From IMG/VR virus record IMGVR_UViG_3300042503_001282, positions 1-62,444 of that record: a DNA stretch of 62,444 nucleotides; one strand, written 5' to 3'. The translations under genes and the position numbers were made by a program. Origin of the DNA: a virus. Of this stretch, positions 3,024 through 16,566 are shown piece by piece; position 1 is the stretch's first letter; each line of letters begins with the position of its first letter. Below the pieces are notes generated by a model. It was given only the letters and a program-made list of their open reading frames with translations. It made no database searches and was not told the origin of the DNA.

Positions 3024-3053
3024 TTGACAATATCCACAAATATCTGTTATACT
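3024..3053 (+). promoter_or_regulatory. Strong extended -10 promoter
   Basis: TTGACA at 3024-3029, an 18-base spacer and TATACT at 3048-3053 preceded by TGT, giving an extended -10. Transcription would start near 3060, 22 bases before the ATG at 3082. It probably drives the operon 3082-4478 and possibly the metalloprotease gene beyond. Confidence 0.75.
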
Positions 3054-3081: not shown

Positions 3082-3381
3082 ATGCTGAATTTAAGTGAGT
3101 TGCAGGTTAAGAAGATTAAGCAAGCTGCGGGGTATCGTGGTCGTAACGTGAAGTTCAAAGAGTTCCAGCCTGGTATGTCTCTCAATTCGTACTGGGATTC
3201 TGGAAGTCGAGACTACTTCTACTTCGTCAATATTGTGACTGGTGCGGTTCGTGCTGTTGGTCAGAATGGTACGCCGTTCGATGGGTTGAATCTGAAGACA
3301 ACCGTTCTCAATCCTAATGAGGTTCTTGCCGAGCGCACTGTGATGCGTGGTAAGGACGTTGCACTTTACATCTTTTCATAA
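3082..3381 (+). CDS. Hypothetical protein, 99 aa
   Basis: First gene behind the strong promoter at 3024. The ribosome binding site AGAAGAGG lies just before the start. The protein is basic at its N-terminus (KKIKQ, GRNVKFKE) and aromatic in the middle (SRDYFYFVN). I do not recognise a family. The next gene starts 16 bases after its stop, so the two are almost certainly co-transcribed. Confidence 0.7.
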   Translation: MLNLSELQVKKIKQAAGYRGRNVKFKEFQPGMSLNSYWDSGSRDYFYFVNIVTGAVRAVGQNGTPFDGLNLKTTVLNPNEVLAERTVMRGKDVALYIFS

Positions 3382-3397
3382 TAGTGAGGTTTTTGAT

Positions 3398-3760
3398 ATG
3401 AAGATTAAGCCAAGGTTTGTGTTAGGTCGATATAACAGAAGAACAGGAACACGTGGTCCTGAGAGAGACCTCTTTGAGAAGTATCAAGTAGGCACGATTC
3501 GTAAAACCGAACACGGCTATACGTTTGTTGAGATCATCGGACCACGAAAGACGTTCTCGCTCATGTCGTGTGCATTACCGCTTACGATCATCTCGCCACC
3601 TGAAGTTGATGGTGGTGATGCTATTCAGAGAAAAGTTCCTCTATACTTCGTCAGCCCGATGAATGGCACAGGTCAAATACAGGGTGCTACGTACTTTGCC
3701 GAGATTGATGGTGAGTTGGTAGCATATCGTGGGGGTGGCGGTTCTGTTTATCCACTATAA
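3398..3760 (+). CDS. Hypothetical protein, 120 aa
   Basis: Unrecognised. The frame is open further upstream from 3347, but the ATG at 3398 fits better: GAGG lies 9 bases before it and the earlier start would sit deep inside the previous gene. The N-terminus is basic (many Arg/Lys). The C-terminus ends in a glycine-rich patch, GGGGS. Second gene of the operon from 3082. Confidence 0.65.
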   Translation: MKIKPRFVLGRYNRRTGTRGPERDLFEKYQVGTIRKTEHGYTFVEIIGPRKTFSLMSCALPLTIISPPEVDGGDAIQRKVPLYFVSPMNGTGQIQGATYFAEIDGELVAYRGGGGSVYPL

Positions 3761-3771
3761 GGTATAGCAAT

Positions 3772-3969
3772 ATGAAAAAAGTAACGCTGCTCGATTTTCT
3801 AACACCTGCTGAGATTGAAGAAGCTCGCAAGATGAAGAGCGCAAGTGAGATCAAGAGAAAGATCATCGATCCAAACTTGCGGAGGATCAACGCTGCGTTA
3901 GGTCAACAGAATGACCCCATGTATCTTGCGTACATGGTCGAGTATGTTTTAACTGCGTTAAAGAAGTGA
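3772..3969 (+). CDS. Hypothetical helical protein, 65 aa
   Basis: Short, highly charged, largely helical protein; residues 11-40 alternate Glu and Lys/Arg. No known family. It sits third in the operon, 11 bases after the previous stop. Such small charged proteins in the accessory regions of T4-like phages are often host-takeover factors, but nothing in the sequence shows that here. Confidence 0.65.
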   Translation: MKKVTLLDFLTPAEIEEARKMKSASEIKRKIIDPNLRRINAALGQQNDPMYLAYMVEYVLTALKK

Positions 3970-3978
3970 GATGTTGAT

Positions 3979-4221
3979 ATGGCAAAGAGATTCGGCGACA
4001 AGCAAATGACAGAGACCACTGGTGCAAAGAACAGAAAGGTGATGGTATCATACCAAGAGCCGGTGGTGATAGTTGATGGCAATAACTACTTCGTCACTGA
4101 AGAGAAGTTCAGTAAGACCACGAGTCGCCACATAAACCACTACCTTCGGCTTGAGGGTGCTGTACATATCCACAAAGTGAATCCTGCCATCTTCAAGAAG
4201 CTCGTATCTGGAGAAATCTAA
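3979..4221 (+). CDS. Hypothetical protein, 80 aa
   Basis: Unrecognised basic protein. It follows the previous gene by 9 bases and precedes the next by 2, so translation is probably coupled. The middle carries a short beta stretch (VVIVDGNNYFV) and the C-terminal half is helical. No motifs of known enzymes. Confidence 0.65.
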   Translation: MAKRFGDKQMTETTGAKNRKVMVSYQEPVVIVDGNNYFVTEEKFSKTTSRHINHYLRLEGAVHIHKVNPAIFKKLVSGEI

Positions 4222-4223
4222 AT

Positions 4224-4478
4224 ATGAGCATGAAAGGCTTCAAGCAATACATCGCAGAGGGTCCAGATAATGGGGTTCTCTTTGTAACCGTCAAGAACGG
4301 ACAAGCTCAGTTAAGAGCAAGCAATTCATCTGGCGCATACCACACCTTCGGCAAAGATGTCGTCATGGCTGTTCTTCAAGGTGACACTGCTGTTGTTACC
4401 CTTCGCAACGGCGTCACACAACTCTATAAGGTCAATCTGAAAGCTCGCACCGTCAGTGGACCAGTAAGTTCATTCTAA
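4224..4478 (+). CDS. Possible packaged internal head protein, 84 aa
   Basis: The N-terminus reads MSMKGFKQYIAE|G. This closely resembles the capsid-targeting sequence of T4 internal proteins, a short basic amphipathic peptide ending in a hydrophobic-x-Glu site cut by the gp21 prohead protease. Cutting after E12 would leave a 72-residue beta-rich domain. The phage's own protease appears to prefer [IL]TE|[ASG] in gp23 and gp22; IAE|G is close. That it enters the head and is injected with DNA is an inference. It is the last gene of the early-type operon 3082-4478, an odd place for a head protein; no late promoter is seen before it. Confidence 0.6.
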   Translation: MSMKGFKQYIAEGPDNGVLFVTVKNGQAQLRASNSSGAYHTFGKDVVMAVLQGDTAVVTLRNGVTQLYKVNLKARTVSGPVSSF

Positions 4479-4494
4479 GCTACATAGTACTGTC

Positions 4495-5799
4495 ATGAAA
4501 AAAGCACTTGCCCGTTCCATTCTTGGAACACTGTTCATTCTTTTCCTTGTTGGTCGTCCAGTTGATGCCATCGTCAGTGGCGTTCTTGGGTTGCGGAATG
4601 ATCCTAGCTCGTCAGCTTCCATAGCCGAGACCCTGAACAAACCAGCTCTAATTAAATTAAAAGATAATAAAAGAGTCAATATCATTTTTTTAACTGCGAA
4701 GAGAAATGCGCCTGTTGGTCCAGAGTCCGTGTTCCTGCAAGGTAGGGTAGTGTACAGGCGTCGAGAATATCCGGTTGCCGCTGCGATCATAGACGGAAAG
4801 ATGAGAGTCACGTTCCCGAGTGTACCAAGAGGCAGTAAATTATCTCGGCAGAGAATTAATACTCTCACAATATCAAAGAATGGAACTGGAAGGTTAGCAA
4901 GTGTTCCAGTTTCAGTTGCTCACGCGAGGACCTGTGCCAATCACGCAGAACATTCCGAAAGTCCGCCCACTGTGATGGCTCTCAACGAAGGTATGCCTTC
5001 GAACCTGTCTCACGTGGTGACACTGCATACGTATGCCGATCAAGAATGGATTGCAAAGTACGGCGCTCGCTCGAATGAAGAGATCATCAGTATCATAAAC
5101 ACTGCTGAAGCTATCTACACTCGTCAGTTGGGGATTCGATTCCGCATCGTGGGTCAGAACAGCTACTACACACTAGAAACAGACCCATCGAAGATGCTGC
5201 GACAAATTCAGTCTGATGCATCAACACAGAACGACAATACAGATCTGAAGCACCTCTTCACTGGGAAAGATATGGACAGCACCACGGTTGGACTCGCATA
5301 TGTTGGCACCGTATGTGCATATCCAAACTGGGCGTACGGCATCACACAACAGTACTATACTCTCACGCCGTTTATTTTTGCACACGAGATCGGACACAAC
5401 TTTAATGCAAACCATACGTACACGGGGCTCATGGCGCCGTACATCTCAGCACAGTCATCGAGTGGGTTCTCTGATTTCAGTCTCAACCAGATCAATAATC
5501 ACCTGAACTATTTCGGGTCGTGCTTGTCACTTGAAGCTACGATGCCGAACCTTGCAACGTCACGCATCACAATATCGTACAGTAACAAGATCATCACCGG
5601 AAAGCTGGTCGACATTTCGGGTAAGCCGTTGCCGAACCAGAAGATCATCATAACACTCAACAGGAGGAAACAGACAGTACGCACAAACGCCCAAGGTCAA
5701 TTCAGAACGAGAGTGGTCGTGAGAGGGAAATACACGGCTAAAGCATCCACGGCAGGGGGAGAAAAAACGTCTAGGTCTATTTCATTCACAGTACGATGA
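4495..5799 (+). CDS. Secreted zinc metalloprotease (metzincin-like), 434 aa
   Basis: A Sec signal peptide spans about residues 1-25 (MKK, hydrophobic core, then VDA). A propeptide-like stretch follows to about 150. The catalytic domain contains HEIGHNFNANH at 297-307: H297, H301 and H307 would bind zinc and E298 is the general base. GLM with M313 fits a Met-turn close behind. These features match metzincins of the reprolysin/M12 type. The last ~80 residues (from about 355) look like an Ig or carboxypeptidase-regulatory beta domain. The product should leave the cytoplasm of the infected cell. I know of no T4-like structural role for such an enzyme; it could act on host surface or extracellular proteins at release. 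No strong ribosome binding site precedes the ATG, but the signal peptide fixes the start. Confidence 0.85.
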   Translation: MKKALARSILGTLFILFLVGRPVDAIVSGVLGLRNDPSSSASIAETLNKPALIKLKDNKRVNIIFLTAKRNAPVGPESVFLQGRVVYRRREYPVAAAIIDGKMRVTFPSVPRGSKLSRQRINTLTISKNGTGRLASVPVSVAHARTCANHAEHSESPPTVMALNEGMPSNLSHVVTLHTYADQEWIAKYGARSNEEIISIINTAEAIYTRQLGIRFRIVGQNSYYTLETDPSKMLRQIQSDASTQNDNTDLKHLFTGKDMDSTTVGLAYVGTVCAYPNWAYGITQQYYTLTPFIFAHEIGHNFNANHTYTGLMAPYISAQSSSGFSDFSLNQINNHLNYFGSCLSLEATMPNLATSRITISYSNKIITGKLVDISGKPLPNQKIIITLNRRKQTVRTNAQGQFRTRVVVRGKYTAKASTAGGEKTSRSISFTVR

Positions 5800-5915
5800 C
5801 ACTACTACAAACACACATACTACGAGTTTTTCTTATGTACATGTTCATTAAGATCACGCTGCTAGTACCCTTTATCACAATGGCTCTCGTAAACTACCTA
5901 TACGACAGGGAATAA
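5796..5915 (+). CDS. Small membrane protein, 39 aa
   Basis: A very short gene whose ATG overlaps the TGA of the metalloprotease gene (ATGA at 5796-5799), the usual sign of translational coupling. Nearly the whole product is hydrophobic (residues 8-33), with a short charged tail (YDRE), so it is probably a single-pass inner-membrane peptide. It could aid secretion of, or protect against, the protease, or act as a small holin or spanin-like factor. None of these is shown by the sequence. Confidence 0.5.
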   Translation: MTLLQTHILRVFLMYMFIKITLLVPFITMALVNYLYDRE

Positions 5916-5993
5916 TAATTCTCAGTTAGCACGTAAATTGTTGTTTTCTGGTTAATTTTGACCTTTCAGCTCCACATCCACTTATGGTATAAT
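5911..5993 (+). promoter_or_regulatory. Promoter with conserved upstream box, copy 1
   Basis: TATAAT at 5988-5993. A second copy of the whole 83-base element lies at 7077-7159 with no gaps in alignment. The best-conserved parts are AATAATAATT, then TCA and TTAGC, then TAAATTG, TTTTGA and the -10. No -35 at 17 bases is present, which suggests that an activator binds the upstream box. Drives 6029-7028. Confidence 0.6.
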
Positions 5994-6028
5994 CATACTG
6001 TAAGAAGGTTTTCAAAAGGAGCAATATT

Positions 6029-6235
6029 ATGAGTCATCCAGTAAACGATTCGGTTCTTGAGAGGCTAGGTGAGTTGCGAGATCTCGTGAATTTCCTAGAG
6101 AGTGAGTTGCTTTTCCATTCTCTTCAAGGTAACTACGACTATGCCGACCAGACATACGGCGAGTTGATCGATGCTCGCAAGGAGCTTGCGAAGTTCGAAG
6201 ATTGGTTGGGTATCACGCCTAGCATGGGAGTTTAA
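6029..6235 (+). CDS. Hypothetical helical protein, 68 aa
   Basis: First gene behind the promoter at 5988. A good ribosome binding site (AAAAGGAG) precedes the ATG. The product is acidic and helical throughout, with heptad-like leucines, so it probably dimerises. No family recognised. Confidence 0.65.
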   Translation: MSHPVNDSVLERLGELRDLVNFLESELLFHSLQGNYDYADQTYGELIDARKELAKFEDWLGITPSMGV

Positions 6236-6237
6236 TT

Positions 6238-6414
6238 ATGAAGATGACGTTTGATCAAGCTAAACAAATCGTGGGAAACCAGCCCAAGTGGGCACTTCAG
6301 AACATGGTTAAAGCCCTCTCGATGTTCGGTGGGTATCTGAATACACCAGAAGAAAACATTAGGCTTCAAGCTGCCAAGAGAGTGTTGCGTGGTGACAGAA
6401 GGAGCAAGAAGTAA
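6238..6414 (+). CDS. Conserved phage protein of NQPxWALxNM type, 58 aa
   Basis: A short gene starting 2 bases after the previous stop. The product carries the pattern NQPKWALQNMVKAL, then LNTPEE and RLQAAKRVLR. I recognise this as a small conserved family in many tailed phages, of unknown function. It is helical and basic at its C-terminus. The conserved pattern makes this call stronger than its length suggests. Confidence 0.8.
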   Translation: MKMTFDQAKQIVGNQPKWALQNMVKALSMFGGYLNTPEENIRLQAAKRVLRGDRRSKK

Positions 6415-6415
6415 T

Positions 6416-6574
6416 ATGATATACGAAGAAGAGCCACGTGTTGAGATGAACCGCACCGAATTCATTTACCTGTCGTATGTGAATGAATTCCTTACTGTAG
6501 AGAGATGTGCCGAGTACCACTGTATCACACCGTCGAGCCTCCGCAGAATAATCAGGTTGTGGAGGAACAAGTAA
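6416..6574 (+). CDS. Small helix-turn-helix-like protein, 52 aa
   Basis: Starts one base after the previous stop; GGAG at 6401-6404 supports the ATG at 6416. The C-terminal half (LTVERCAEYHCITPSSLRR) has the spacing of a helix-turn-helix that recognises DNA. It would suit a small transcriptional regulator or a subunit of a larger DNA-binding complex. No oligomerisation domain is visible. Confidence 0.65.
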   Translation: MIYEEEPRVEMNRTEFIYLSYVNEFLTVERCAEYHCITPSSLRRIIRLWRNK

Positions 6575-6575
6575 C

Positions 6576-7028
6576 ATGAACCTCAACAAACTCACAAAAT
6601 ACGCCGCCCTCAGGAAAGCCGTAAAGTTCGCTCGCCTGAATTGCAATCCAGAAGAGAACGCTACCAGATACCGAGCACTGATCCTCGGCTACTACTCAGC
6701 TATAGAAGAGTTGGGTGCGATCAAGTTTCCCAGACCAGAGAAACGTGCCCGAGAAGTGGGCAGAAAGATCTCGTCAACCAAACGCAAAATGATCAAGCAG
6801 GGATTGTGGTTCGGCGGTCGAGTGCCGTTCGGGTATAGTGCCAAAAACGGCAAGCTGGTCATCAACCACGAAGAAGATGAAGCCGTGTCGATGATGGTGA
6901 GATTATATGCGGGTGGGGTCAAGCCACATACCATATCGAAACGGATATTCGAAAAGCTCGGCATCAAGGTGTCCCATAATTGTGTGCGAAAGATATGCAC
7001 TGGTCAGAGAGTGACGCCGACACACTAG
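6576..7028 (+). CDS. Recombinase-domain protein lacking catalytic domain, 150 aa
   Basis: Residues 70-145 resemble the Recombinase domain of large serine recombinases: a basic lead-in, G-x-VPFGY, a stretch like LVINHEEDEAV, then a Gly-containing helix pair and a final DNA-contact segment. Full-length members place a ~140-residue resolvase domain with the active serine in front. Here that domain is missing and replaced by ~70 unrelated helical residues. The protein should bind DNA but cannot cut it. It may be a domesticated DNA-binding protein, comparable to the DNA-binding segments of phage homing nucleases. Last gene of the unit from 6029. Confidence 0.7.
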   Translation: MNLNKLTKYAALRKAVKFARLNCNPEENATRYRALILGYYSAIEELGAIKFPRPEKRAREVGRKISSTKRKMIKQGLWFGGRVPFGYSAKNGKLVINHEEDEAVSMMVRLYAGGVKPHTISKRIFEKLGIKVSHNCVRKICTGQRVTPTH

Positions 7029-7032
7029 AGCA

Positions 7033-7047
7033 TACGAAAAACTCGTA
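7033..7047 (+). repeat. TACGA/TCGTA dyad
   Basis: TACGA, five bases, TCGTA, placed just after a stop codon. The same half-sites recur at 2938-2953, 5887-5905 and 13045-13061, each upstream of a predicted promoter. Confidence 0.45.
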
Positions 7048-7076
7048 GTCCAGCTTAACTGGTTGATATTAAACCA

Positions 7077-7159
7077 AATAATAATTATCACTTAGCAATT
7101 AAATTGCTGATTCCACGCCATTTTTGAGCTTCGCATTAACATGGAAAGTGTGCTATAAT
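7077..7159 (+). promoter_or_regulatory. Promoter with conserved upstream box, copy 2
   Basis: TATAAT at 7154-7159 preceded by TGC (extended -10). The element aligns without gaps to 5911-5993, with strongest identity in the first 30 bases. Drives the run of small genes from 7191. Confidence 0.65.
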
Positions 7160-7190
7160 AAGAGTATAAGGTAAAGAGAAAAGGTTCTGT

Positions 7191-7400
7191 ATGTTATCGA
7201 AAATTGATCAAGCTAAAGCTGAAGTATTTGAAAAGATCATCGAAGATGCTGGTCTCGATTTCACCCCAGAGACAGTACTCAAATGTATTGAGATCGCCAA
7301 AGTTGCCATGAAGAACGGCGATTGCTCAGTCGAAGCATTCTATAAGGCAAAAGAGATCCTGATTTCCAGACTTGAGTGCCCCAGTGAGTTGTTAAACTAA
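7191..7400 (+). CDS. Hypothetical helical protein, 69 aa
   Basis: First gene of a long run of small genes (7191-10286). AGAAAAGG precedes the ATG. Acidic and helical, with Lys/Glu pairs typical of a small helical bundle; no family recognised. Confidence 0.65.
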   Translation: MLSKIDQAKAEVFEKIIEDAGLDFTPETVLKCIEIAKVAMKNGDCSVEAFYKAKEILISRLECPSELLN

Positions 7401-7414
7401 TCAAAGGAGTTGTT

Positions 7415-7624
7415 ATGAACATCAAAGAACTAGAACAGGCACTAGCAGAAGCCAACCGCCGTGCTAAACAGCACCTCGTCAACAGCAACATCGCCACCTA
7501 CTGGCGAGACTCGGCAGAGTCAAGTGAGCAGTGGGAGCACAGTAAAGAAGCTCTCGCCGAAGCTGAACTGATCAAGAAGCAGATTGAAGCTCTCAAGCTT
7601 GCAGAGGGAATCGTCGAGTCGTAA
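7415..7624 (+). CDS. Hypothetical coiled-coil protein, 69 aa
   Basis: AAAGGAG lies seven bases before the ATG. Almost all residues favour helix, with Leu/Ala spacing like a coiled coil (LEQALAEANRRAK). Unknown function. The next very short gene begins one base after its stop. Confidence 0.65.
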   Translation: MNIKELEQALAEANRRAKQHLVNSNIATYWRDSAESSEQWEHSKEALAEAELIKKQIEALKLAEGIVES

Positions 7625-7625
7625 C

Positions 7626-7739
7626 ATGAACTCAGTGAGTGGAGTCGTATACCTCAGAGAGTCGCCTGATCTCTCGTTGGACGTATTACTTTCCGAGGGC
7701 ATCGAGGGTATAATTGAAGAGAACGATGAGGACTATTAG
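7626..7739 (+). CDS. Possible acidic micro-protein, 37 aa
   Basis: A short open frame beginning one base after the previous stop and ending one base before the next ATG. That tight packing is the main evidence. The product is strongly acidic at its end (EENDEDY). No clear ribosome binding site; translation may be coupled. It could be a DNA mimic-like or decoy peptide, but that is guesswork. Confidence 0.4.
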   Translation: MNSVSGVVYLRESPDLSLDVLLSEGIEGIIEENDEDY

Positions 7740-7740
7740 T

Positions 7741-7965
7741 ATGGACATGTGGAACTTAGAGGGTCACAAAATCGAGGGTAAATATCACGGGGTTCCTTTC
7801 CGTGGTACGGTAATCAGTAGCCGGTCAGCATACGGTCGGTATCCTGCAATAATACATTTCATTGAACTTGAGAAGTCGATCACCGTATATGGCGAGCCTC
7901 GCCAATCACTCGTAGTGAAGACCGATGATGAGCCAGATATTTCAGAATTTGTTGTAGTAGAATAA
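7741..7965 (+). CDS. Hypothetical beta-rich protein, 74 aa
   Basis: The frame is open from a TTG at 7714, but the ATG at 7741 has GAGG ten bases before it and fits the gene packing better. The product looks like a small beta barrel: charged N-terminus, then alternating strands (GKYHGVPFRGTVIS). It ends in an acidic tail. Unknown function. Confidence 0.65.
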   Translation: MDMWNLEGHKIEGKYHGVPFRGTVISSRSAYGRYPAIIHFIELEKSITVYGEPRQSLVVKTDDEPDISEFVVVE

Positions 7966-7983
7966 CACGAAGGAAATGCAATA

Positions 7984-8160
7984 ATGGATAAATACAGAGC
8001 CGTCGCCATTGTAGAAGGATTTGAAGAACCGATCAGCCAAGACGAATTTCTCGCCGCGGCGCAGTATCTCGTCGATTCGGGTTTAGCATGGAGTCTACAA
8101 GGATTCTTCGGTAGAGTTTGTAAAGACCTGATTGACCAGGGGCTTATCGAGGACCGTTAA
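7984..8160 (+). CDS. Conserved phage protein (DUF7417-like), 58 aa
   Basis: A short gene with AAGGAA before its ATG. The product has the pattern QYLVDSGLAWSLQGFFGR, then a second helix ending QGLI. I recognise this as a widespread small phage family of unknown function, usually 50-60 residues. Its TAA overlaps the next ATG (TAATG at 8158-8162), so the two are translationally coupled. Confidence 0.8.
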   Translation: MDKYRAVAIVEGFEEPISQDEFLAAAQYLVDSGLAWSLQGFFGRVCKDLIDQGLIEDR

Positions 8161-8420
8161 TGCATCCACTCATACTAGACGCACTTTCAAAGGGCAAAGA
8201 TCGTGTCGCAGGAAGAATCAACCACGTTTCGATGCTTGATGATATTCGTGCGGTAGTATTGCTCGACACAAAACAAGAGATACACATCCACGTGAAACCA
8301 GGACAGTACGAACGACTCCAAGGTGGGTTGCTTGAAGAAGCGATCTTCATCGGCAAGTTTGATCTCGAAGTCCTTCAGTGTACCACGGTGATTTTTAACA
8401 AACGTCCGACTAACCAATAA
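8160..8420 (+). CDS. Hypothetical protein, paralogue of next gene, 86 aa
   Basis: Coupled to the preceding gene by TAATG. Its second half aligns with that of the gene at 8431: a beta strand with H/A-V-x-P, then LLEE-A-x-F (here) or LLED-V-L-F (there), and a final C-T-x-V/M-x-F strand. The two look like a tandem duplication that has diverged. No known family. Confidence 0.65.
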   Translation: MHPLILDALSKGKDRVAGRINHVSMLDDIRAVVLLDTKQEIHIHVKPGQYERLQGGLLEEAIFIGKFDLEVLQCTTVIFNKRPTNQ

Positions 8421-8430
8421 AGTATATACT

Positions 8431-8718
8431 ATGAAAACAGTTGAAGATGTAGCAAACCAATACCCAGGCGACTATACACTTGCAGCGCCGATCACGAAAA
8501 TTGAGGTCGTATCGAAGACCCTCGATGGTGGATTCCATGTAGACCTCACCCTTACCACAGGTGAGATCATTGAGGCAGCAGTGCCTGCTGAAAAGCTTGC
8601 TATGCTCCGCGAGAGGCTACTTGAAGATGTGCTTTTTGTTGTGAAGCCACTCACAGAATCGAATAGATATGAGTGTACGTGTATGGTATTTGGCAAAGCA
8701 CCGGAGTTTAAGCACTAA
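8431..8718 (+). CDS. Hypothetical protein, paralogue of previous gene, 95 aa
   Basis: Second member of the tandem pair (see 8160-8420). It has a slightly longer N-terminus and the same predicted strand-helix-strand order, with a Cys-x-Cys in the last strand. The pair may form a heterodimer. Function unknown. Confidence 0.65.
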   Translation: MKTVEDVANQYPGDYTLAAPITKIEVVSKTLDGGFHVDLTLTTGEIIEAAVPAEKLAMLRERLLEDVLFVVKPLTESNRYECTCMVFGKAPEFKH

Positions 8719-8721
8719 AAT

Positions 8722-8940
8722 ATGTGTCCAAATAAGAAACTAAAATTGTTCGAGTTGACGAATCGCTACAGATTCGCATTCTACCTGTTTGGAACCCCAG
8801 ACACAGGATACAACAGAATGCGCCTTGCTTCGTTCATCTCAACGAAAAAGCCCAGAGAGTACGAGCTGTTCATCGAAGACGATCAGAAAGTGTTAGTATT
8901 CTGGAATCCATATGATAAAGCTGAAGTCAAACAAAGCTAA
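8722..8940 (+). CDS. Hypothetical basic protein, 72 aa
   Basis: Begins 3 bases after the previous stop. Basic and aromatic, with no recognised motif. Its last 29 bases overlap the start of the next gene in another frame, so the two are read together. Confidence 0.6.
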   Translation: MCPNKKLKLFELTNRYRFAFYLFGTPDTGYNRMRLASFISTKKPREYELFIEDDQKVLVFWNPYDKAEVKQS

Positions 8941-9124
8941 GTGTCTCGTTTGCAACACCATTGTCGAGAGTAAGCACCGCCGTGATTTTTGTTGGTGCGA
9001 GTGTGGTGCCATGTACGTCGATGGAGGACTCGATTATCTCAGACGTGGCGGCAAAGATCTCTCACAGATCGAAGACCTGTCAGAGTATGAAGAGGTCGAA
9101 GATCAGCAGCAGACCACTAAATAA
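8912..9124 (+). CDS. Zinc-ribbon phage protein (DUF7695-like), 70 aa
   Basis: Four cysteines in two pairs (KCLVC near residue 11 and CWCEC near 27-31), followed by VDGGLDYLRR. I recognise this combination as a small, widely conserved phage family with a zinc-ribbon fold, function unknown. The C-terminus is acidic. The last codons (ACT AAA TAA) also form an ACTAAATA motif like the late promoters of this phage. Confidence 0.8.
   Translation: MIKLKSNKAKCLVCNTIVESKHRRDFCWCECGAMYVDGGLDYLRRGGKDLSQIEDLSEYEEVEDQQQTTK
9116..9123 (+). promoter_or_regulatory. Late-promoter-like ACTAAATA before 9130
   Basis: Shares TAAATA with the late promoters before gp19 and gp23 (GCTAAATA). It overlaps a stop codon, so it may be chance. 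If used, transcription would start at or next to the ATG at 9130. Confidence 0.3.
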
Positions 9125-9129
9125 CCTAC

Positions 9130-9414
9130 ATGTCGATCATTTCCACACTGAAAGAAGTAGTATTCAAAGAGACCGCAGATGCAGGGAAAGTTTCCATCAT
9201 CATGTGGAACGATGAGCAGCAACACTCCGGTACAGCATCAATACTCGTGCCAGTTGCAGCGTATGACAGAGCGCCGTACAGAGCAGCACTCAGAGCAATT
9301 AACATCAAGATTCCACAAGCCAAAAAGGTGTTAGCCGTCAAAGCCATGCCAGGCGTGGTAAAATACCCCACAGCTAACTACTACCTAGTGAGAGCAGACT
9401 TCATCACTAAATAG
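9130..9414 (+). CDS. Hypothetical protein, 94 aa
   Basis: Mixed alpha/beta protein with several Ala/Val-rich strands (SIIMW, ILVPVAAY). No family recognised and no gp21-type cleavage site of the [IL]TE form. It stands between two late-promoter-like motifs and immediately before a likely packaged protein, so it may belong to the same late unit. Confidence 0.65.
   Translation: MSIISTLKEVVFKETADAGKVSIIMWNDEQQHSGTASILVPVAAYDRAPYRAALRAINIKIPQAKKVLAVKAMPGVVKYPTANYYLVRADFITK
9406..9413 (+). promoter_or_regulatory. Late-promoter-like ACTAAATA before 9419
   Basis: Second copy of ACTAAATA, again overlapping a stop codon and again six bases before the next ATG. Recurrence before a gene with prohead-protease sites makes a late role plausible. 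Confidence 0.35.
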
Positions 9415-9418
9415 GTGT

Positions 9419-9976
9419 ATGAATATCAAACAACTCACCCAGTACATCACAAACAAGAGCAAGAAAGTGCAGCCGATCACAGAATCTGCCGAGTATACGG
9501 TAGTGAAAAGCTTAGTGATTCCACATTCCCTCACCCATACAGGCATTGCCGGTACCACCAAGACAATACAGAACCCCGATGGCGGCAAGACAGCAGTCCT
9601 GTTAAAATTCAAAGACGGCAAGATCACAACAGGTGTGGGTAAGACAAAAGAAGAAGCGATTGCTCAAGCCGTAGAAGCCAAAGCCGCGATCTTCAAAGAA
9701 GAAAACATTACAGAAGCAAAGTATCCTGTCCTCCACGATACACTTCACTCAGCAGTACAGACAGCACTCGCCTACACTAAGAAAGACGGCTACACCATTA
9801 GTGACGAAGAAGAATTCAACAAGATCACCACAGCATACAAGAATCTAGGCATTGGGAAAACAGACGAGTTCCACCTTGAACTATACAAGAATGGTAAGCC
9901 ACAGAGTAAGATGTTACACATTCAAGTATACCGCATGGACACAGGACGCTACGAACTCAATTTCTACGTAGCCTAA
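9419..9976 (+). CDS. Likely packaged head protein with two gp21-type sites, 185 aa
   Basis: The first 22 residues form a basic amphipathic leader ending PITE|S, and a second site, NITE|A, follows E99. Both match the [IL]TE|[ASG] pattern of gp23 (IITE|A) and gp22 (LLTE|G) in this phage. Cutting would give a ~77-residue beta domain (23-99) and an 86-residue C-terminal domain (100-185). The C-terminal domain resembles a conserved phage family (LHDTLHSAVQ..., GKT, and a final IQVY-x-M-x-x-x-RYELN strand). I infer an internal head protein processed into two pieces, possibly injected with DNA. Gene placement after a late-type motif agrees. Confidence 0.65.
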   Translation: MNIKQLTQYITNKSKKVQPITESAEYTVVKSLVIPHSLTHTGIAGTTKTIQNPDGGKTAVLLKFKDGKITTGVGKTKEEAIAQAVEAKAAIFKEENITEAKYPVLHDTLHSAVQTALAYTKKDGYTISDEEEFNKITTAYKNLGIGKTDEFHLELYKNGKPQSKMLHIQVYRMDTGRYELNFYVA

Positions 9977-9977
9977 T

Positions 9978-10286
9978 ATGGACATCAACCTCTTCCGTAA
10001 ATCATTAGCTAGTAAACAAAAGCTCCTCACTGAGAGCCACCCAGAGCTACAGAGCCTTGCACACCGAGTGGCTGAACTGCCACACAAAGGACCATCGAGA
10101 GACAAAATATTAGCAGAGATCGACCAAATATGGAGCGATTTAGACTATATACCGAGCCTTTCATCAATTACGAAACGCCGCATTCAATCCAATCTCGATG
10201 AACTTACTGATGCGATTAAAGCAAATGAGTATAGTGATGCCGATATCCTTCGAAACACAATCGTGAAAGACTTGCTCAAGGCGTAG
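9978..10286 (+). CDS. Likely packaged helical head protein, 102 aa
   Basis: Starts one base after the previous stop. The N-terminus is a basic amphipathic helix ending KLLTE|S at residues 15-20, the same type of site as in gp22 (LLTE|G). Cleavage would leave an 83-residue helical protein. It is probably translated together with the preceding two-site protein. Internal head protein is an inference from the leader and site. Confidence 0.6.
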   Translation: MDINLFRKSLASKQKLLTESHPELQSLAHRVAELPHKGPSRDKILAEIDQIWSDLDYIPSLSSITKRRIQSNLDELTDAIKANEYSDADILRNTIVKDLLKA

Positions 10287-10292
10287 TAGTCC

Positions 10293-10312
10293 ACAAACAG
10301 GCACTTGTTTGT
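10293..10312 (+). terminator. Hairpin after 9978 gene
   Basis: ACAAACA and TGTTTGT, 7-bp stem with a 6-base loop, starting seven bases after the stop codon at 10284-10286. No clear T tract follows, so termination strength is uncertain. The rest of 10313-10460 shows no gene. Confidence 0.4.
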
Positions 10313-10466
10313 AAAAGTGGTTTTATAGGAAAAGGAAGGACTGAACAATCATTTTATAGCGTAACTTCCAAGCTCGCCTACTGATTTACCCTCAGAGTCC
10401 TTTCCAGATTTCGCTCCAAAAAATTCTCGTCCACAATTTTTTTACCCCTGAGCCTTTCTTATTCGT

Positions 10467-10494
10467 TTGACAAAAGAAAGCAAGATGCTATATT
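10467..10494 (+). promoter_or_regulatory. Extended -10 promoter, probably leaderless
   Basis: TTGACA at 10467-10472, a 16-base spacer, TGC, then TATATT at 10489-10494. Transcription should start near 10501 and the ATG is at 10503. No Shine-Dalgarno sequence could be on the transcript. Confidence 0.7.
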
Positions 10495-10502
10495 CTTACA
10501 TT

Positions 10503-10727
10503 ATGACAGACACAGTTGCAGTACCGATGAAGACACGAGACGTGAACGAGATGAAAGAGCGCAGAGACCTGTTCAAGCAAGTCGCAATAACCGTTCTATC
10601 ATCACGAACCGCACTTGCAGTAACAGCAGATGCGAACGGTCCGAAGGTCAGTGATCATTTTATAGAGACGGTCACGCTCCTCACGAATGGAATCATTGAC
10701 GCAGCAACAAAATTTGGAGAAAAATAG
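10503..10727 (+). CDS. Hypothetical protein, 74 aa
   Basis: The frame is open from a TTG at 10467, but that codon is the -35 box of the promoter just upstream, so the ATG at 10503 is the better start. The product is helical with a polar N-terminus and a hydrophobic C-terminal stretch (ETVTLLTNGIID). Unknown function. It would be translated from a message with almost no leader, like 308 and 15386. Confidence 0.65.
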   Translation: MTDTVAVPMKTRDVNEMKERRDLFKQVAITVLSSRTALAVTADANGPKVSDHFIETVTLLTNGIIDAATKFGEK

Positions 10728-10730
10728 CAA

Positions 10731-10913
10731 ATGGCACGCATAGTAGCAGCAGTAAAAGCAGTAGTAGCAAAAATTCGCTCGATTGTTGAGCGAGTACGAC
10801 CGACGAAACATGCCGGGTGTGGTAAGGTTGTGTGTATCAAGAGCGCAAAGAAGAGCAAAACAGCTAAAAAGACTGCAAAACCACGAAAAGTAGCGAAAAA
10901 GTCGAGAAAGTAG
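10731..10913 (+). CDS. Histone H1-like basic protein, 60 aa
   Basis: Residues 1-28 form an Ala/Val/Arg helix. Residues 38-60 are almost only Lys, Ala, Ser, Pro and Thr (AKKSKTAKKTAKPRKVAKK), like the tail of histone H1 or bacterial H1-like proteins. It should bind DNA or RNA without sequence preference. Two cysteines at about 29 and 34 might bind metal or dimerise. It follows the previous gene by 3 bases. A role in nucleoid takeover or DNA compaction is inferred. Confidence 0.7.
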   Translation: MARIVAAVKAVVAKIRSIVERVRPTKHAGCGKVVCIKSAKKSKTAKKTAKPRKVAKKSRK

Positions 10914-10942
10914 CGGTTTTCGCTCGTTTTTCTCAAGATTTC

Positions 10943-10962
10943 GTCCTCCTTTCGAGGAGGAC
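10943..10962 (+). terminator. TTCG-loop hairpin
   Basis: GTCCTCCT and AGGAGGAC, an 8-bp GC-rich stem closed by a TTCG loop. No T tract follows. TTCG hairpins of this kind stabilise or end T4 transcripts. Confidence 0.55.
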
Positions 10963-10995
10963 ACAAAACTCACACTTTTTCAGAGTTTTGAGCAT

Positions 10996-11043
10996 TTTTG
11001 ACCATTTTCGGTAGATTTCGGTAAAATTCGGTACTTTTGACCA
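10996..11043 (+). repeat. Helically phased TTCGGTA repeats flanked by TTTTGACCA
   Basis: TTCGGTA occurs at 11007, 11017 and 11027, exactly 10 bases apart, so all three face the same side of the DNA helix. TTTTGACCA stands on each side (10996-11004, 11035-11043). The first of these also gives TTGACC with TAAAAT 18 bases on (11022-11027), a possible promoter for 11067. Looks like an operator or iteron array. Confidence 0.55.
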
Positions 11044-11066
11044 AACTAGCACAAAATAGCACTTCC

Positions 11067-11507
11067 ATGAGTTTCACGTACAGCACCAAAGAATTGCAGA
11101 ATTTAGAGCAAATGCTTGAAAAGAAGCTTTTTGACCTCAAAGTAGCACAACAGGGTGCGAAGACGCCTCCTGGTGAATTTGATGAATTGAGCTTAACGAC
11201 CAATATTCTCAAATTTGTGCAGTACTTGGTGAATCGAGAGCTTTCTCAGATGGGCTTCTGGAGACAGTCGCCTCTTTCAGACCCGCCATATACGTATGGG
11301 TATGGTAGTGTGACGAGTACAGGTGGTGCAGTCATGCCGAGTGTGAGCGATACTTCTACGATCTGTGAGAATTGCAGACAGTTGAACCCAACTCACACCC
11401 ATTGTGTACATAAAGTGGTAAGTGCTGACTTTGAAGCGCACGATCTCGGTGACTGCGATTTTGGAAGTACTATCGGGCAGAACAAAGCGATCAAAAGTGA
11501 AACGTGA
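11067..11507 (+). CDS. Hypothetical protein with Cys/His cluster, 146 aa
   Basis: The frame is open from a TTG at 11037; I chose the ATG at 11067, though neither start has a ribosome binding site. Residues 1-70 are helical. A Gly/Tyr/Ser-rich linker follows, then CENCRQLNPTHTHC near 110-125, which could hold zinc. The C-terminus is acidic. Unknown function. It is preceded by a phased repeat array. Confidence 0.6.
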   Translation: MSFTYSTKELQNLEQMLEKKLFDLKVAQQGAKTPPGEFDELSLTTNILKFVQYLVNRELSQMGFWRQSPLSDPPYTYGYGSVTSTGGAVMPSVSDTSTICENCRQLNPTHTHCVHKVVSADFEAHDLGDCDFGSTIGQNKAIKSET

Positions 11508-11561
11508 CGAAATGGATTTGGATTGATAATCGAAACTAACTAAGCGAAAAAGAGAGAACCC

Positions 11562-11939
11562 ATGAAACTTCGTGTACCACAACAGATGCTAGAGCAGATA
11601 CGAGCGACGATTATTAACAAACGTGCAGAGATACAACACAATCGTGAACATCGAAAGCAGCTCATACGTGATATTCGAACCTTGAAGCACAACATCAAAG
11701 CTGGCGAGAACTTGTGCTCGAAACTCGAAGTCGGTTTGGTGTGTGATGTTGCATACCTTCGTGCTGATCTGAAGAATAAACGAGATACCCTTGCAACCAT
11801 GCGTACCACTCTTCTCGGTGCAGAGATCGACCACAGTATTTCAAAAGCTATGTGTCGAGTATTGCATGAACAGTTAGACAGACTGAATGCGCCGTTTGAT
11901 CCATCACGAGCAACATCAGCAGGAAGATCACGGAGCTAG
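11562..11939 (+). CDS. Hypothetical coiled-coil protein, 125 aa
   Basis: AAAGAGAGAA precedes the ATG. Residues 5-110 are nearly continuous charged helix with regular leucines and isoleucines, and an Arg/Lys excess, so it is probably a dimeric coiled coil that may contact nucleic acid. The tail is Ser/Arg/Gly-rich. No known family. Confidence 0.65.
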   Translation: MKLRVPQQMLEQIRATIINKRAEIQHNREHRKQLIRDIRTLKHNIKAGENLCSKLEVGLVCDVAYLRADLKNKRDTLATMRTTLLGAEIDHSISKAMCRVLHEQLDRLNAPFDPSRATSAGRSRS

Positions 11940-11947
11940 TGTCACCT

Positions 11948-12340
11948 ATGTTTCGAATGCATGAATGGAACCCACACGATATGTCTAGTGCAATTCGCAT
12001 TGAGAATGAGCCGAAGGTTACGTTTGCAGCTAAAGACAATGTTGAAGTGTTCGTGTTGACCTCATCGGGTATGCTTTTTAATCGAGAGTTGTTTCCACAC
12101 GATTCGTATCAACAAGCAGCGAAGCGAACCTTTCTTGTGATTGACAGCATACTACGAGACACCCTGACTGATAATAGTCGCACGTTCAACTTCCGGCTCA
12201 AAGAGTGGAGAGAGTTCCCAATCAGAAATTTTGAAATTGCAGCATCAGGTGTGATCACTCATAACTACGAGGTCGATACCTGGCACTGGTGGTTCTTAGA
12301 AGCTCTCGGCAAACTCGTTCGTGAAAAATACCATACATAA
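11948..12340 (+). CDS. Hypothetical protein, 130 aa
   Basis: A GTG at 11939 in the same frame overlaps the previous stop; the ATG at 11948 has GGAG 12 bases ahead and is equally likely. The protein is alpha/beta with a tryptophan-rich motif near the end (TWHWWFLEALGKL). No family recognised. Confidence 0.6.
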   Translation: MFRMHEWNPHDMSSAIRIENEPKVTFAAKDNVEVFVLTSSGMLFNRELFPHDSYQQAAKRTFLVIDSILRDTLTDNSRTFNFRLKEWREFPIRNFEIAASGVITHNYEVDTWHWWFLEALGKLVREKYHT

Positions 12341-12345
12341 TCACT

Positions 12346-12516
12346 ATGAAGAAACTACTTGTCGCTACCCTCATTTACATCGCATTTGGACTCGGCTCAC
12401 TACCTGAACAACCACTCACAGGTGGCATGCTCGTCATCAGCATCTTTGATGAGAAACCACAGATTGATCGTAGAATCACCAGAGACGGCGTATACCTATT
12501 CGACGTGGAGATGTAA
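12346..12516 (+). CDS. Small exported or membrane protein, 56 aa
   Basis: Starts with MKK and a hydrophobic core (LLVATLIYIAFGLG), so it has either a signal peptide or a membrane anchor. The remaining 35 residues are polar and mixed in charge. No lipobox cysteine. It begins 5 bases after the previous stop. Function unknown. Confidence 0.6.
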   Translation: MKKLLVATLIYIAFGLGSLPEQPLTGGMLVISIFDEKPQIDRRITRDGVYLFDVEM

Positions 12517-12520
12517 CCGT

Positions 12521-12805
12521 ATGTCAGACCCTATCGACATCAAGTCTATTCTCAATGAGTACCTATCAGAAGACGACGACTTTGGCTTTTCAGCAGTCAG
12601 TGAAGAAGAGTACAACAAGGTCGTTACCGATTCTGAGCAGACTGTTGAGAACTACAAAGAAAAGCTTGCAGAGGTTGAAAAGCTGATTGTGCCGTTTTTG
12701 GTGAAGTTACTCAAGACAGCAGACAAAGAGTACATTTACTGGCCGAACAGAAAACCAGCCATTGAGAAGCAGATTGAGAAAGTGATCAAGTTGACCCGAA
12801 GCTAA
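12521..12805 (+). CDS. Conserved T4-like phage protein, 94 aa
   Basis: The frame is open further upstream, but the ATG at 12521 follows the stop of the previous short gene and begins a plausible acidic helix. The C-terminal third, with EYIYWPNR followed by a basic helix (EKQIEKVIKLTR), matches a small family I know from T4-like cyanophages, function unknown. The acidic N-terminus contains a run of Glu/Asp. Confidence 0.7.
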   Translation: MSDPIDIKSILNEYLSEDDDFGFSAVSEEEYNKVVTDSEQTVENYKEKLAEVEKLIVPFLVKLLKTADKEYIYWPNRKPAIEKQIEKVIKLTRS

Positions 12806-12819
12806 CCAGGAACCATATC

Positions 12820-13038
12820 ATGACAAAAACCAAAAAGAGCGAATCCAAAGGTAGTCAAGCAACCGAAGAGATGCTGAAGCTTGTGGAAGAAATTAAAGAG
12901 CTAGTACTCGTTAGGTCAGCACTAGGGTATGGAACAGGTACAGGTGTGCGTAAAACCGCAGAAAGTACCATATCTCGTGCTATATCAGCTAGGGTAGACG
13001 ACCTGTCCAAGTTGATTGTAGACGATATAGACGCATAG
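12820..13038 (+). CDS. Hypothetical helical protein, 72 aa
   Basis: Lys/Ser-rich start (TKTKKSESKGS), then a helix of Glu/Leu, a glycine-rich turn and a final acidic helix. AGGAACC lies before the ATG. No known family. Last gene before the subtilase promoter region. Confidence 0.6.
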   Translation: MTKTKKSESKGSQATEEMLKLVEEIKELVLVRSALGYGTGTGVRKTAESTISRAISARVDDLSKLIVDDIDA

Positions 13039-13044
13039 CCAAAA

Positions 13045-13061
13045 ATACGAAAATCTCGTAT
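13045..13061 (+). repeat. ATACGA/TCGTAT dyad
   Basis: 6-bp arms with a 5-base centre, beginning six bases after a stop codon and about ten bases upstream of the -35 of the protease promoter. Fourth member of the TACGA/TCGTA set. Confidence 0.45.
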
Positions 13062-13071
13062 AACAAATATC

Positions 13072-13099
13072 TTTGCACAAGCTCCAAACGTGCTATACT
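13072..13099 (+). promoter_or_regulatory. Extended -10 promoter of subtilase gene
   Basis: TTTGCA at 13072-13077, a 16-base spacer, TGC, then TATACT at 13094-13099. Transcription would start near 13106, leaving a 32-base leader with TTGGAGA before the ATG at 13138. Confidence 0.65.
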
Positions 13100-13137
13100 C
13101 AGAATGAGTGTGTTACTTAATTATTTGGAGACTTGTT

Positions 13138-14922
13138 ATGAATAAGGTTGTATCGATTGTTCTTGCTACAGTGTGTTTGTCTGCTTCGCTTGCGACAGCG
13201 CAAGAGAAACGTGCGTTTGATGGTGTCATTCTTTCGAGCACAAAAAAGCTCGATGAGAGTATCGTCAAGTTCATCGCACTGAGGCGTGAAAAGCTATCAC
13301 CCACAAGTGTTCACTACGTTGACGTTCGCAGTGATGGAACTGCAAAGCAATATAGTAGAAGCTCTTCTCTATGTCGAAGGGCAAATATTCGCAGAATTCA
13401 AAAATCATCTGGTGGTATGGTTCGATGCTCACCGAATTTTGAGGTGCGAACAACCGAAGAACCAAACGACCAATACTACAGTCAGCAGTATTCACACCGA
13501 TTAATGTCGATGTCATATGCGTGGGATAAGCAGAAAGGAAACTCAGAACTTCTCGCTCTCGTCATCGACACTGGTATTGATGTCAACCACCCAGACTTGA
13601 AAGAGAATGTGTGGGTTAATCCAAGTGAGATACCCAACAACAATATCGACGATGACAAAAACGGATTCATCGATGATGTCAACGGCATAAACGCTATCAC
13701 CAATGTTGGTAGTGGTATTGACGATAACGGACATGGCACTCACGTTGCTGGTATCATTGGCGCAGACACTAACAACTACATGGGTGTTGCTGGTGTTGCT
13801 CAGACGGTCAAGTTGGTGAGTCTGAAATTTCTCTCTGCAACTGGATCTGGCAGTACCGCAAATGCAATCAAAGCAATCAACTACGGAATACAACTCAAGA
13901 ATGTTGGTCATAATGTTGTCGTCATGAACAACTCGTATGGTTCGACGATATTCTCGCAGCCATTTCTTGATGCAATTCGTCGTGCACGAGACAAAGATAT
14001 TCTATTCGTCGCAGCAGCAGGTAACAGTAGCGTGAATACAGACGTGAAGCCGTTCTACCCTGCGGGGTATGACTCAGCGAATATTATTTCGGTGGGGTCG
14101 GTTGATTCATCAGCATCATATAACTCATTCTCAAACTACGGCGTCTCATCGGTTGATGTAGCAGCGCCAGGTGGTGGCATTCTCAGCACCGTTCTCTACA
14201 ATACCTACAACTACAAGAGTGGCACTTCAATGGCTGCGCCACAAGTCAGTGGTCTTGCAATATTAGCAAAAGCACAATGCAGCACTCTCGATGCACTCAC
14301 AGCTAAATCTCAAATCATGAGCAGTGTCGTTAAGTATTCTGCACTATCAACTAAGGTTGCTTCGGGTGGTGTGGTGAACGGCATAGGACTGATCGACACC
14401 GTAAGTCAGAATTGTTCTAATCAGACAGCAACGCCGACACCTACACCAACAGCCACAATAACAGGCACGCCACAGAACACAGCAGTGCCAACGGCTACAC
14501 CTACGTTCACACCAACACCTACCAGAACGCCGACACCTACACCCACAATAACACCGACGAGCACACCGACACCTTTACCTAAAGCTAGGTTCTTGAAGAG
14601 TGTGTTGATTCCAACTCAGACGGTTGACTTTATTGTGGAGGGTTCGCCAAGAAATTTGGCGACAGTTCAGTTTCGGTTGAAGCTATCTAACAACACACTT
14701 CACTCATGCACGAACATGCCGGTCAATTTGACGAATGGTAGTAGAGCGTACCGTGTCATGTTACCTGATGCTCTGAAGCTTTTCCCAACGGTGAATGTTC
14801 TGTTGAAAGCACCAGGTGTGATTGCGACAAGTTCAGTTGCAGTGAAATCCACAGGCAGCACCATGTCGAGAATACAAGCTAACGCTGCGTGTGCACGACT
14901 GAATGCACAACTTGATTGGTAG
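13138..14922 (+). CDS. Secreted subtilisin-like serine protease, 594 aa
   Basis: A Sec signal peptide spans residues 1-21 (MNKVV..., ending TATA before QE). A propeptide follows to about 100. The S8 catalytic domain (about 105-425) shows D144 in VIDTG, H199 in GHGTHVAG, N296 in AAGN (oxyanion hole) and S364 in GTSMAAP, all in the right order and context, so it should be active. Residues ~430-482 are a Thr/Pro-rich linker (TPTPTP type), as in secreted bacterial enzymes. A ~110-residue beta domain ends the protein. I chose 13138 over an upstream GTG because TTGGAGA precedes it and the signal peptide begins there. It has its own promoter. A secreted subtilase is highly unusual for a T4-like phage; its target is unknown. 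Confidence 0.9.
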   Translation: MNKVVSIVLATVCLSASLATAQEKRAFDGVILSSTKKLDESIVKFIALRREKLSPTSVHYVDVRSDGTAKQYSRSSSLCRRANIRRIQKSSGGMVRCSPNFEVRTTEEPNDQYYSQQYSHRLMSMSYAWDKQKGNSELLALVIDTGIDVNHPDLKENVWVNPSEIPNNNIDDDKNGFIDDVNGINAITNVGSGIDDNGHGTHVAGIIGADTNNYMGVAGVAQTVKLVSLKFLSATGSGSTANAIKAINYGIQLKNVGHNVVVMNNSYGSTIFSQPFLDAIRRARDKDILFVAAAGNSSVNTDVKPFYPAGYDSANIISVGSVDSSASYNSFSNYGVSSVDVAAPGGGILSTVLYNTYNYKSGTSMAAPQVSGLAILAKAQCSTLDALTAKSQIMSSVVKYSALSTKVASGGVVNGIGLIDTVSQNCSNQTATPTPTPTATITGTPQNTAVPTATPTFTPTPTRTPTPTPTITPTSTPTPLPKARFLKSVLIPTQTVDFIVEGSPRNLATVQFRLKLSNNTLHSCTNMPVNLTNGSRAYRVMLPDALKLFPTVNVLLKAPGVIATSSVAVKSTGSTMSRIQANAACARLNAQLDW

Positions 14923-15385: not shown

Positions 15386-15616
15386 ATGACAAGAAATTCT
15401 CGCTCAAAACAAAACATCGAACGAAAAATTGTTGAGCTGTACATTCGACTCAACAAGCGCAAGACAACCAAGATTGCACGTAGACAAAATCTCAAGAAGC
15501 GACTTGAGTTTTTCAAAGCTCTCTTACAAGAGACGACAGACGCACAAGCAACTGAAGTTCTCGCTGAGACTGATCAATCAGTAACATCTCTCTCAACCAC
15601 CTCTGTTACAGAATAA
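15386..15616 (+). CDS. Hypothetical basic helical protein, 76 aa
   Basis: Residues 1-50 are strongly basic (many Arg/Lys, RRQNLKKR) and helical; the tail is Thr/Ser-rich. It probably binds nucleic acid. Its ATG sits at the predicted transcription start, without a leader. It reads into the gene at 15620, so the same promoter may serve 15386-16965. Confidence 0.65.
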   Translation: MTRNSRSKQNIERKIVELYIRLNKRKTTKIARRQNLKKRLEFFKALLQETTDAQATEVLAETDQSVTSLSTTSVTE

Positions 15617-15619
15617 TAA

Positions 15620-16249
15620 ATGGGCTGCGACATTCACGCTCACCTTGAGTACTACGAGACTCAAGTTGCGAGCGACACCATTCACACTTCATGTCACGCA
15701 TCTGACATCAGCATGGGTCGAAACTATGCGATGTTCAATCTTCTTGCTGGTGTTCGTGGTGTGAATGGTCCGGTGTTTACGCTTCGTGGTGTGCCAACTA
15801 AACCGACTATGAGCTACCAAGTATACGACAAGTACTACTTAAAGGTTCTCGACATGTACAATCCGTCTATGTCATATCCATCAACACGGTACATTTCTTC
15901 AACAGAAGCAGAAAATCTCGTTGCGTCAGGATTGACCAAGTATAATGAGAATAAGCAGTACGTTGTGAATCCGAATTGGCACACACCAGGTTTCTTATAC
16001 AAAAAAGAATTGATAGAAATTCGTCGAAAGTATCTGATCAACATGATCGAGTATGAAGCGTCTGAGTACCGTGGTCTCAAGCGACAAGAAGCTCTCGACA
16101 CCTTAGAAAATTCAAGTGAAGTAGAACTCATGCAGAGTGTTTTTCCTTCTATTGAATGTGTGCAATTAAATGCAGTCATCGCTTCGATGATTGCTATTGA
16201 GAACAGTGGAAACTACCAATCTCGTTTTGTATTTTGGTTTGATTCGTAA
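15620..16249 (+). CDS. Conserved MGCDIH family protein, 209 aa
   Basis: Begins MGCDIHAHLEYY and later has RNYAMFNLLAGVRG. I recognise both as signatures of a family found in bacteria and many phages, with no established function. The conserved Cys3, Asp4 and His6 at the very N-terminus suggest metal binding or an enzyme that uses its N-terminal end. No signal peptide or membrane segment. Confidence 0.8.
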   Translation: MGCDIHAHLEYYETQVASDTIHTSCHASDISMGRNYAMFNLLAGVRGVNGPVFTLRGVPTKPTMSYQVYDKYYLKVLDMYNPSMSYPSTRYISSTEAENLVASGLTKYNENKQYVVNPNWHTPGFLYKKELIEIRRKYLINMIEYEASEYRGLKRQEALDTLENSSEVELMQSVFPSIECVQLNAVIASMIAIENSGNYQSRFVFWFDS

Positions 16250-16263
16250 TAATGGAGAATAAT

Positions 16264-16566
16264 ATGGTTAAGTTTACCGATGAGATGATCAAGAAAGCAA
16301 AGACGTTGTTTCCAGATAACGTGGTGCTGCTCGATATGATGCGAAAGGGTGATGTGAAGATAGTTGATGTTCTCTATGGCAAGCTTGGCTTTCACCTCGA
16401 TGAAGACGACATCATCAAAGCTTTCAGAAACAAGAAAGAGTATCGTGTGCTCGATATGGCTAAACGAGCAAAAGCAATTCGTGATCTATACCAACAGGTA
16501 ATCGCTCACGTTGACGCAACAGAAACAAAAATCGCAGAGAGAAACGGTTACGCAGACTGCATGTAA
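16264..16566 (+). CDS. Hypothetical protein, 100 aa
   Basis: An in-frame ATG at 16252 exists, but GGAG at 16255-16258 is placed for the ATG at 16264, which I therefore chose. Helical, with Asp/Glu clusters around residue 40-50 and a basic middle (MAKRAKAIRDL). Unknown function. Confidence 0.65.
   Translation: MVKFTDEMIKKAKTLFPDNVVLLDMMRKGDVKIVDVLYGKLGFHLDEDDIIKAFRNKKEYRVLDMAKRAKAIRDLYQQVIAHVDATETKIAERNGYADCM

Follow-up and report, generated by a model that had tools for sequence, protein, structure and literature searches.

Auxiliary genes are well known in phages, where most of them act inside the infected cell, and the takeover of photosynthesis by cyanophages is the case for comparison here. 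Subtilases have likewise been found in phages, and the core gene set of T4 includes neither the subtilase nor the M12B metzincin family. In this study, we analyzed a stretch of 62,444 bases, hereafter the window, which is the linear IMG/VR virus record IMGVR_UViG_3300042503_001282 of a T4-type phage, and found in it an M12B-type (adamalysin/reprolysin-like) metzincin gene (4495-5799) and an S8 subtilase gene (13138-14922), both related to exoproteases of an uncultured bacterial lineage. Among the described systems, the subtilases of Bacillus phages SP-15 and Goe7 and the protease of Moorella phage MTATph1 are also phage-encoded S8 enzymes, with 34-37% identity to the window subtilase over the catalytic domain. 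However, their signal-peptide-like N-termini are much weaker or absent, they lack the host-type linker and C-terminal domain, and they belong to other phage groups. The nearest solved catalytic domain, when catalytic domains are compared, is that of deseasin MCP-01, a secreted subtilase of a marine bacterium and thus a cellular enzyme.

The metzincin gene lies on the plus strand and is an intact open reading frame (ORF) of 434 amino acids with the architecture of a secreted zymogen. In a profile search the protein matched PF13688 (E=1.4e-21) and PF13582 (E=1.6e-21), five Reprolysin models exceeded their curated cut-offs, as did one CarboxypepD_reg model, and the best sequence matches in the PDB were M12B enzymes, namely snake-venom and ADAM proteases. 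The zinc site HEIGHNFNANH (5383-5415, plus strand) is of the HExxHxxGxxH type, in which the usual Gly position is occupied by Asn or Gly in this family. Its residues H297, E298, H301 and H307, as well as the Met-turn methionine M313 (5431-5433, plus strand), all named in a preliminary description of this DNA, are as stated there and invariant in 14 homologs. Homology together with the invariant zinc ligands, Glu and Met-turn assigns the protein to M12B (reprolysin-like). A Foldseek search with the structure model retrieved ADAM-8 and venom metalloproteases (probability 1.00, TMt 0.54-0.61), the model having a mean predicted local distance difference test score (pLDDT) of 70 and a weak active-site region. 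The C-terminal beta domain (5548-5796, plus strand), of the CarboxypepD_reg or immunoglobulin (Ig)-like type, matched PF13620 above the cut-off with 36.4 bits and was modeled with a pLDDT mostly of 79-95 from residue 351.

At the end of the metzincin prodomain, Cys147 (4933-4935, plus strand) is invariant in 14/14 homologs. The remaining cysteines of the protein, Cys274 and Cys343, are both in the catalytic domain and are invariant too; within the window protein Cys147 thus lacks a partner and is the sole unpaired candidate. By analogy with ADAM prodomains, this suggests that Cys147 may act as a cysteine switch.

The subtilase gene (plus strand) encodes an intact protein of 594 amino acids, consisting of a signal peptide, a propeptide, a catalytic domain, a Pro/Thr-rich linker and a C-terminal domain. 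Its longest ORF begins with GTG at 13108, and the start is likely the ATG at 13138, which has GGAG upstream and the signal peptide right behind it. The protein matched PF00082 with E=1.5e-47 (162.7 bits), and its best PDB match is deseasin MCP-01 (3vv3, E=3.3e-80), so the profile searches confirmed both of the families that had been named. The propeptide contains two conserved Cys residues. In the catalytic domain (13522-14382, plus strand), delineated by the profile, the PDB match and a phage homolog, the Asp/His/Ser triad (D144, H199, S364; numbered from the ATG) and the oxyanion Asn (N296) are complete, as had been claimed, and all four residues are kept in that homolog, encoded by the related contig L104. 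Misaligned active sites had been named as what would overturn the assignments; in both proteases the sites are aligned and conserved. The Pro/Thr-rich linker (14422-14583, plus strand) resembles linkers of host-lineage subtilases (L138, L130-L132), and the C-terminal domain (14584-14919, plus strand) is kept in L104 and in the host-lineage subtilase L138, which aligns over query residues 9-590 with 43% identity. Judged from homology to 3vv3, the subtilisin fold is secure, the structure model built from a two-row alignment having a pLDDT of only 34.7.

Signal peptides were judged by a simple measure rather than by SignalP, namely a positive N-terminus, a hydrophobic core and small residues at -3 and -1. 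By this measure, both window proteases begin with Sec signal peptides, that of the metzincin covering about residues 1-25 (4495-4569, plus strand; VDA/IV; mean Kyte-Doolittle hydrophobicity of the core 2.87, N-terminal charge +3) and that of the subtilase 13138-13200 (plus strand; ATA/QE; core 2.79); the metzincin of the related contig L105 is atypical in this respect. Among the 47 ORFs of the window, the two proteases rank second and third in N-terminal hydrophobicity, behind a holin-like gene. The view that both proteases are intact and of an exported type is thus upheld: their ORFs are complete, and they have signal sequences by this measure, propeptides and C-terminal domains.

The phage itself is of the T4 type, and the earlier remark that neither protease family belongs to the T4 core stands. 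The right two thirds of the window hold a T4-type block with gp5, gp25, gp6, gp8, tail fibers, gp13 and gp14, and further with gp3, gp16, gp17, gp18, gp20, gp21, gp22 and gp23-like proteins. This head, tail and baseplate gene set is accompanied by exact copies of TATAAATA, the T4 late promoter. To the left of this block, both proteases lie in an island of small genes.

The same pair of proteases, which the preliminary description proposed to look for in related phages, was found in L104 (IMG/VR 3300005805_000102, 57.7 kb), a contig from another metagenome, in the same order and with the same neighbors. Between the window and L104, the metzincins are 44% and the subtilases 49% identical, and the neighboring gene pairs 37-78%. 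Since the pair and its order are kept and the identities fall within the range of the neighbors, the two genes have been inherited together over a long divergence. This independent syntenic contig excludes an assembly artefact, another condition under which the finding was to be given up. Any artefact or passing host contamination is barely credible: it has the host-type families in its favor and nothing else, and against it stand the order and neighbors in L104, the phage clades in both protease trees (see below) and a G+C content near that of the phage.

The metzincin is also encoded in two further T4-type contigs, L002 and L105, with 38% and 29% identity, respectively, to that of the window, and in both it adjoins baseplate-like genes of the gp53 and gp54 types, as recognized by eye rather than by profile. 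The subtilase is absent from L002 and L105, which are fragments. Among 42 T4-type records searched, a full metzincin was found only in L104, L002 and L105, and a subtilase over the cut-off only in L104. A single-sequence scan of viral contigs for the subtilase gave no match, and a scan with a two-row alignment gave L104 only; a subtilase match in L108 was rejected as a false match to a baseplate protein. One more T4-type contig (L112, 3300020055_000005) encodes, at 1228-2094, a protein that likewise has a reprolysin-like, M12B-type catalytic domain. In contrast to the window metzincin, it matches over 45 profile positions only, no signal peptide was seen where its ORF begins, and it is probably an independent gain.

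No metzincin relatives were found in PHROGs or in 50,697 phage records, and the best metzincin matches in BFVD are Ig-like domains, with no metalloprotease named among them. Nor was a phage reprolysin found in the open literature searched. As far as these libraries, collections and literature show, it is new for phages to encode an M12B metzincin of the secreted type together with a secreted subtilase, and for such a metzincin to be traced to a host family.

To find cellular relatives of the metzincin, the genomes of 84,980 bacterial and archaeal species were scanned with a pattern. Strong, long matches were confined to metagenome-assembled genomes (MAGs) whose titles read delta proteobacterium, Proteobacteria or bacterium; lakes or estuaries were the source of several. 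These genomes are 2.6-3.4 Mb in size and hold up to seven metzincins each, as well as 6-14 subtilase matches each (match counts, linker-only matches included), the best subtilases being 43-56% identical to that of the window over the best matched stretches. Like the window protein, the M12B exoproteases of this lineage (L113-L123, G043-G054) have a signal peptide, a prodomain with the invariant Cys, a catalytic domain and a C-terminal Ig-like domain, but they are only 31-39% identical to it, and in many of them a further hinge precedes the C-terminal domain. The S8 subtilases of the lineage (e.g. L138, L130) also share the full layout of the window subtilase, from signal peptide through Pro/Thr linker to C-terminal domain, but they fall outside the phage clade and vary in their linkers and C-terminal parts. 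Large secreted sets of subtilases and metzincins were observed in G043-G051 and G054, where some subtilase loci also match the C-terminal domain of the metzincins.

Phylogenetic analysis showed that the metzincins of the four phages group in a single clade (99/95), which lies within the host-lineage family (100/98) and adjoins one host paralog group (90/90). Similarly, the two phage subtilases group in a single clade (99/97) that lies among the subtilases of the same MAGs. In both trees, therefore, the phage copies are nested within cellular host families, as is required of host-derived auxiliary genes. Because they form single clades there, each protease was probably captured once from the MAG lineage and then inherited. 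The G+C content of the protease genes (0.46-0.47) differs little from the phage value (0.44), compared with 0.52-0.64 for host contigs, which argues that the capture was not recent. Of 46 genomes searched in the phylum around G048, 10 have members of the metzincin family at E<=1e-100 and exactly those 10 have members of the subtilase family at that threshold, and since these genomes contain close relatives of both enzymes, an uncultured freshwater deltaproteobacterial lineage is likely both donor and host.

As to the timing of expression, all six exact copies of TATAAATA in the window lie on the plus strand and precede genes located at 23.9 kb or beyond, which are structural genes only. Five of the six fall within intergenic DNA, which by count makes up 4.6% of the window. 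Extended -10 sites (TGnTATAmT) occur in the protease island at 3045, 5985, 7151, 13091 and 15371. Over the window as a whole there are eight such sites, against 3.2 expected, a number of sites as high as eight being reached in 3 of 100 shuffles. By scan, a predicted sigma-70-type promoter with an extended -10 element (TTTGCA-16-TATACT; 13072-13099, plus strand) ends 38 nt before the subtilase ATG, and the same element recurs at 16755-16782 of L104. Another (TTGACA-18-TATACT; 3024-3053, plus strand) precedes the gene run 3082-5799, which ends with the metzincin and is presumably one transcript, and in L002 TTGACT-18-TATAAT stands just upstream of the metzincin. With sigma-70-type sites at the proteases and late promoters only at structural genes in the window, early expression appears likelier than a role in lysis, and host-type, probably early, transcription is our best guess.

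We therefore favor, with middling confidence, a reading in which both proteases are host-lineage exoproteases kept as auxiliary genes, exported as zymogens and sustaining extracellular proteolysis during infection. Host-type RNA polymerase would transcribe the genes from the sigma-70-type promoters during infection, and Sec would carry the products across the inner membrane. Maturation would follow outside the cytoplasm, in the subtilase by removal of its propeptide and in the metzincin by breaking of a putative Cys-zinc latch. Once mature, the enzymes would be active extracellularly or at the cell surface, like the host's own paralogs. Most likely, the extracellular digestion and peptide supply of the host would thereby be kept up or boosted at a time when host expression is being shut down by the phage. 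The preliminary description had listed matrix, competitors, host defenses and release as purposes without choosing among them. Descent from host exoproteases, promoters of the sigma-70 rather than the late type and the keeping of the metzincin in two phage lineages now favor extracellular digestion over release or lysis.

Several observations weigh against this reading. The only link to the host is homology between genes: a search of eight MAGs with the portal protein gave neither a relative of it nor a phage contig, no spacer or tRNA match connects the phage to the lineage, and the G+C content of the phages (28-44%) is below that of the MAG contigs (52-64%). Promoter-like sites in the region are overall only slightly above the shuffle mean. 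In L104, TATAAATA stands directly upstream of the gene that the metzincin follows, so the metzincin may be expressed late in that phage. This late promoter would suit a role in release, in which the proteases degrade periplasmic or matrix proteins late in infection and aid lysis or virion spread, as would the export of both enzymes and the fact that the window is a fragment whose lysis set is incompletely known. We nevertheless consider release improbable, given that a holin-like gene lies elsewhere, at 47579 of the window, and that the window proteases are preceded by host-type promoters and not by late ones.

Nor do the data separate a nutritional role from action on the cell surface. The main rival, which we regard as unlikely yet ahead of release, is that the exported proteases shave receptor or surface-layer proteins from the infected cell, blocking superinfection and the loss of progeny on debris; export and sigma-70-type promoters would fit this, and the C-terminal domains could hold the enzymes at the surface. 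However, no receptor is known, and a lineage that makes many similar enzymes itself leaves a special receptor target unneeded. Attack or defense outside the cell, with competitors, prey or grazers nearby as the targets of the enzymes, has a small chance of being right: the large exoprotease set of the host might fit a predatory or particle-degrading life, but there is no sign of targeting.

Among the neighboring genes, the small gene directly before the metzincin (4224-4478, plus strand; same order in L104) encodes an N-terminus like the T4 capsid targeting sequence (MSMKGFKQYIAE). Such N-termini occur on many small genes, in the window also at 9419-9976 and 9978-10286, in L104 at 575-2315, 9699 and 13433, in L002 at 11136 and 15416-16292, and in L105 at 7380; at least five of the L104 genes share MDINLFRKSLASKQ ahead of unrelated bodies. 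The metzincin adjoins a gene of this kind in all four phage contigs, and a gp21-like protease is encoded at 58216 of the window. By analogy with the injected internal head proteins of T4 (PMC3012670), these genes may form an expanded set of such proteins. In L002, the metzincin neighbor (11136-12041) combines a capsid-targeting-like N-terminus with a zeta-toxin-type kinase domain (PF06414), and a similar protein is encoded at 7377-8222 of L105; the L002 protein is possibly injected to act on the bacterial host. Also near the metzincin are other auxiliary genes, for a class-III aminotransferase, a UvdE-type ultraviolet endonuclease and a GH5-like glycosidase (L002:8473-9756, L002:14348-15403 and L105:10404-11429). 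Elsewhere in the window are a small protein with a serine-recombinase-like domain (6576-7028; phrog_95), from which the catalytic domain is apparently absent, and a virion-type protein of 3154 amino acids with DUF4815 (25908-35372). Directly 3' of the subtilase, in both the window (15620-16249) and L104, lies a conserved gene (phrog_10141) whose product begins MGCDIHAH.

Tentatively, we propose that T4-type phages infecting a freshwater lineage of protein degraders take over the extracellular digestion of their host as an early program, by means of a matched pair of secreted serine protease and metalloprotease zymogens. If so, the phage would manage the public, extracellular metabolism of the infected cell, which would affect protein turnover in freshwater. 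The finding would also point to a probable host for T4-type viruses that otherwise have none assigned, together with a program of early expression that can be tested.

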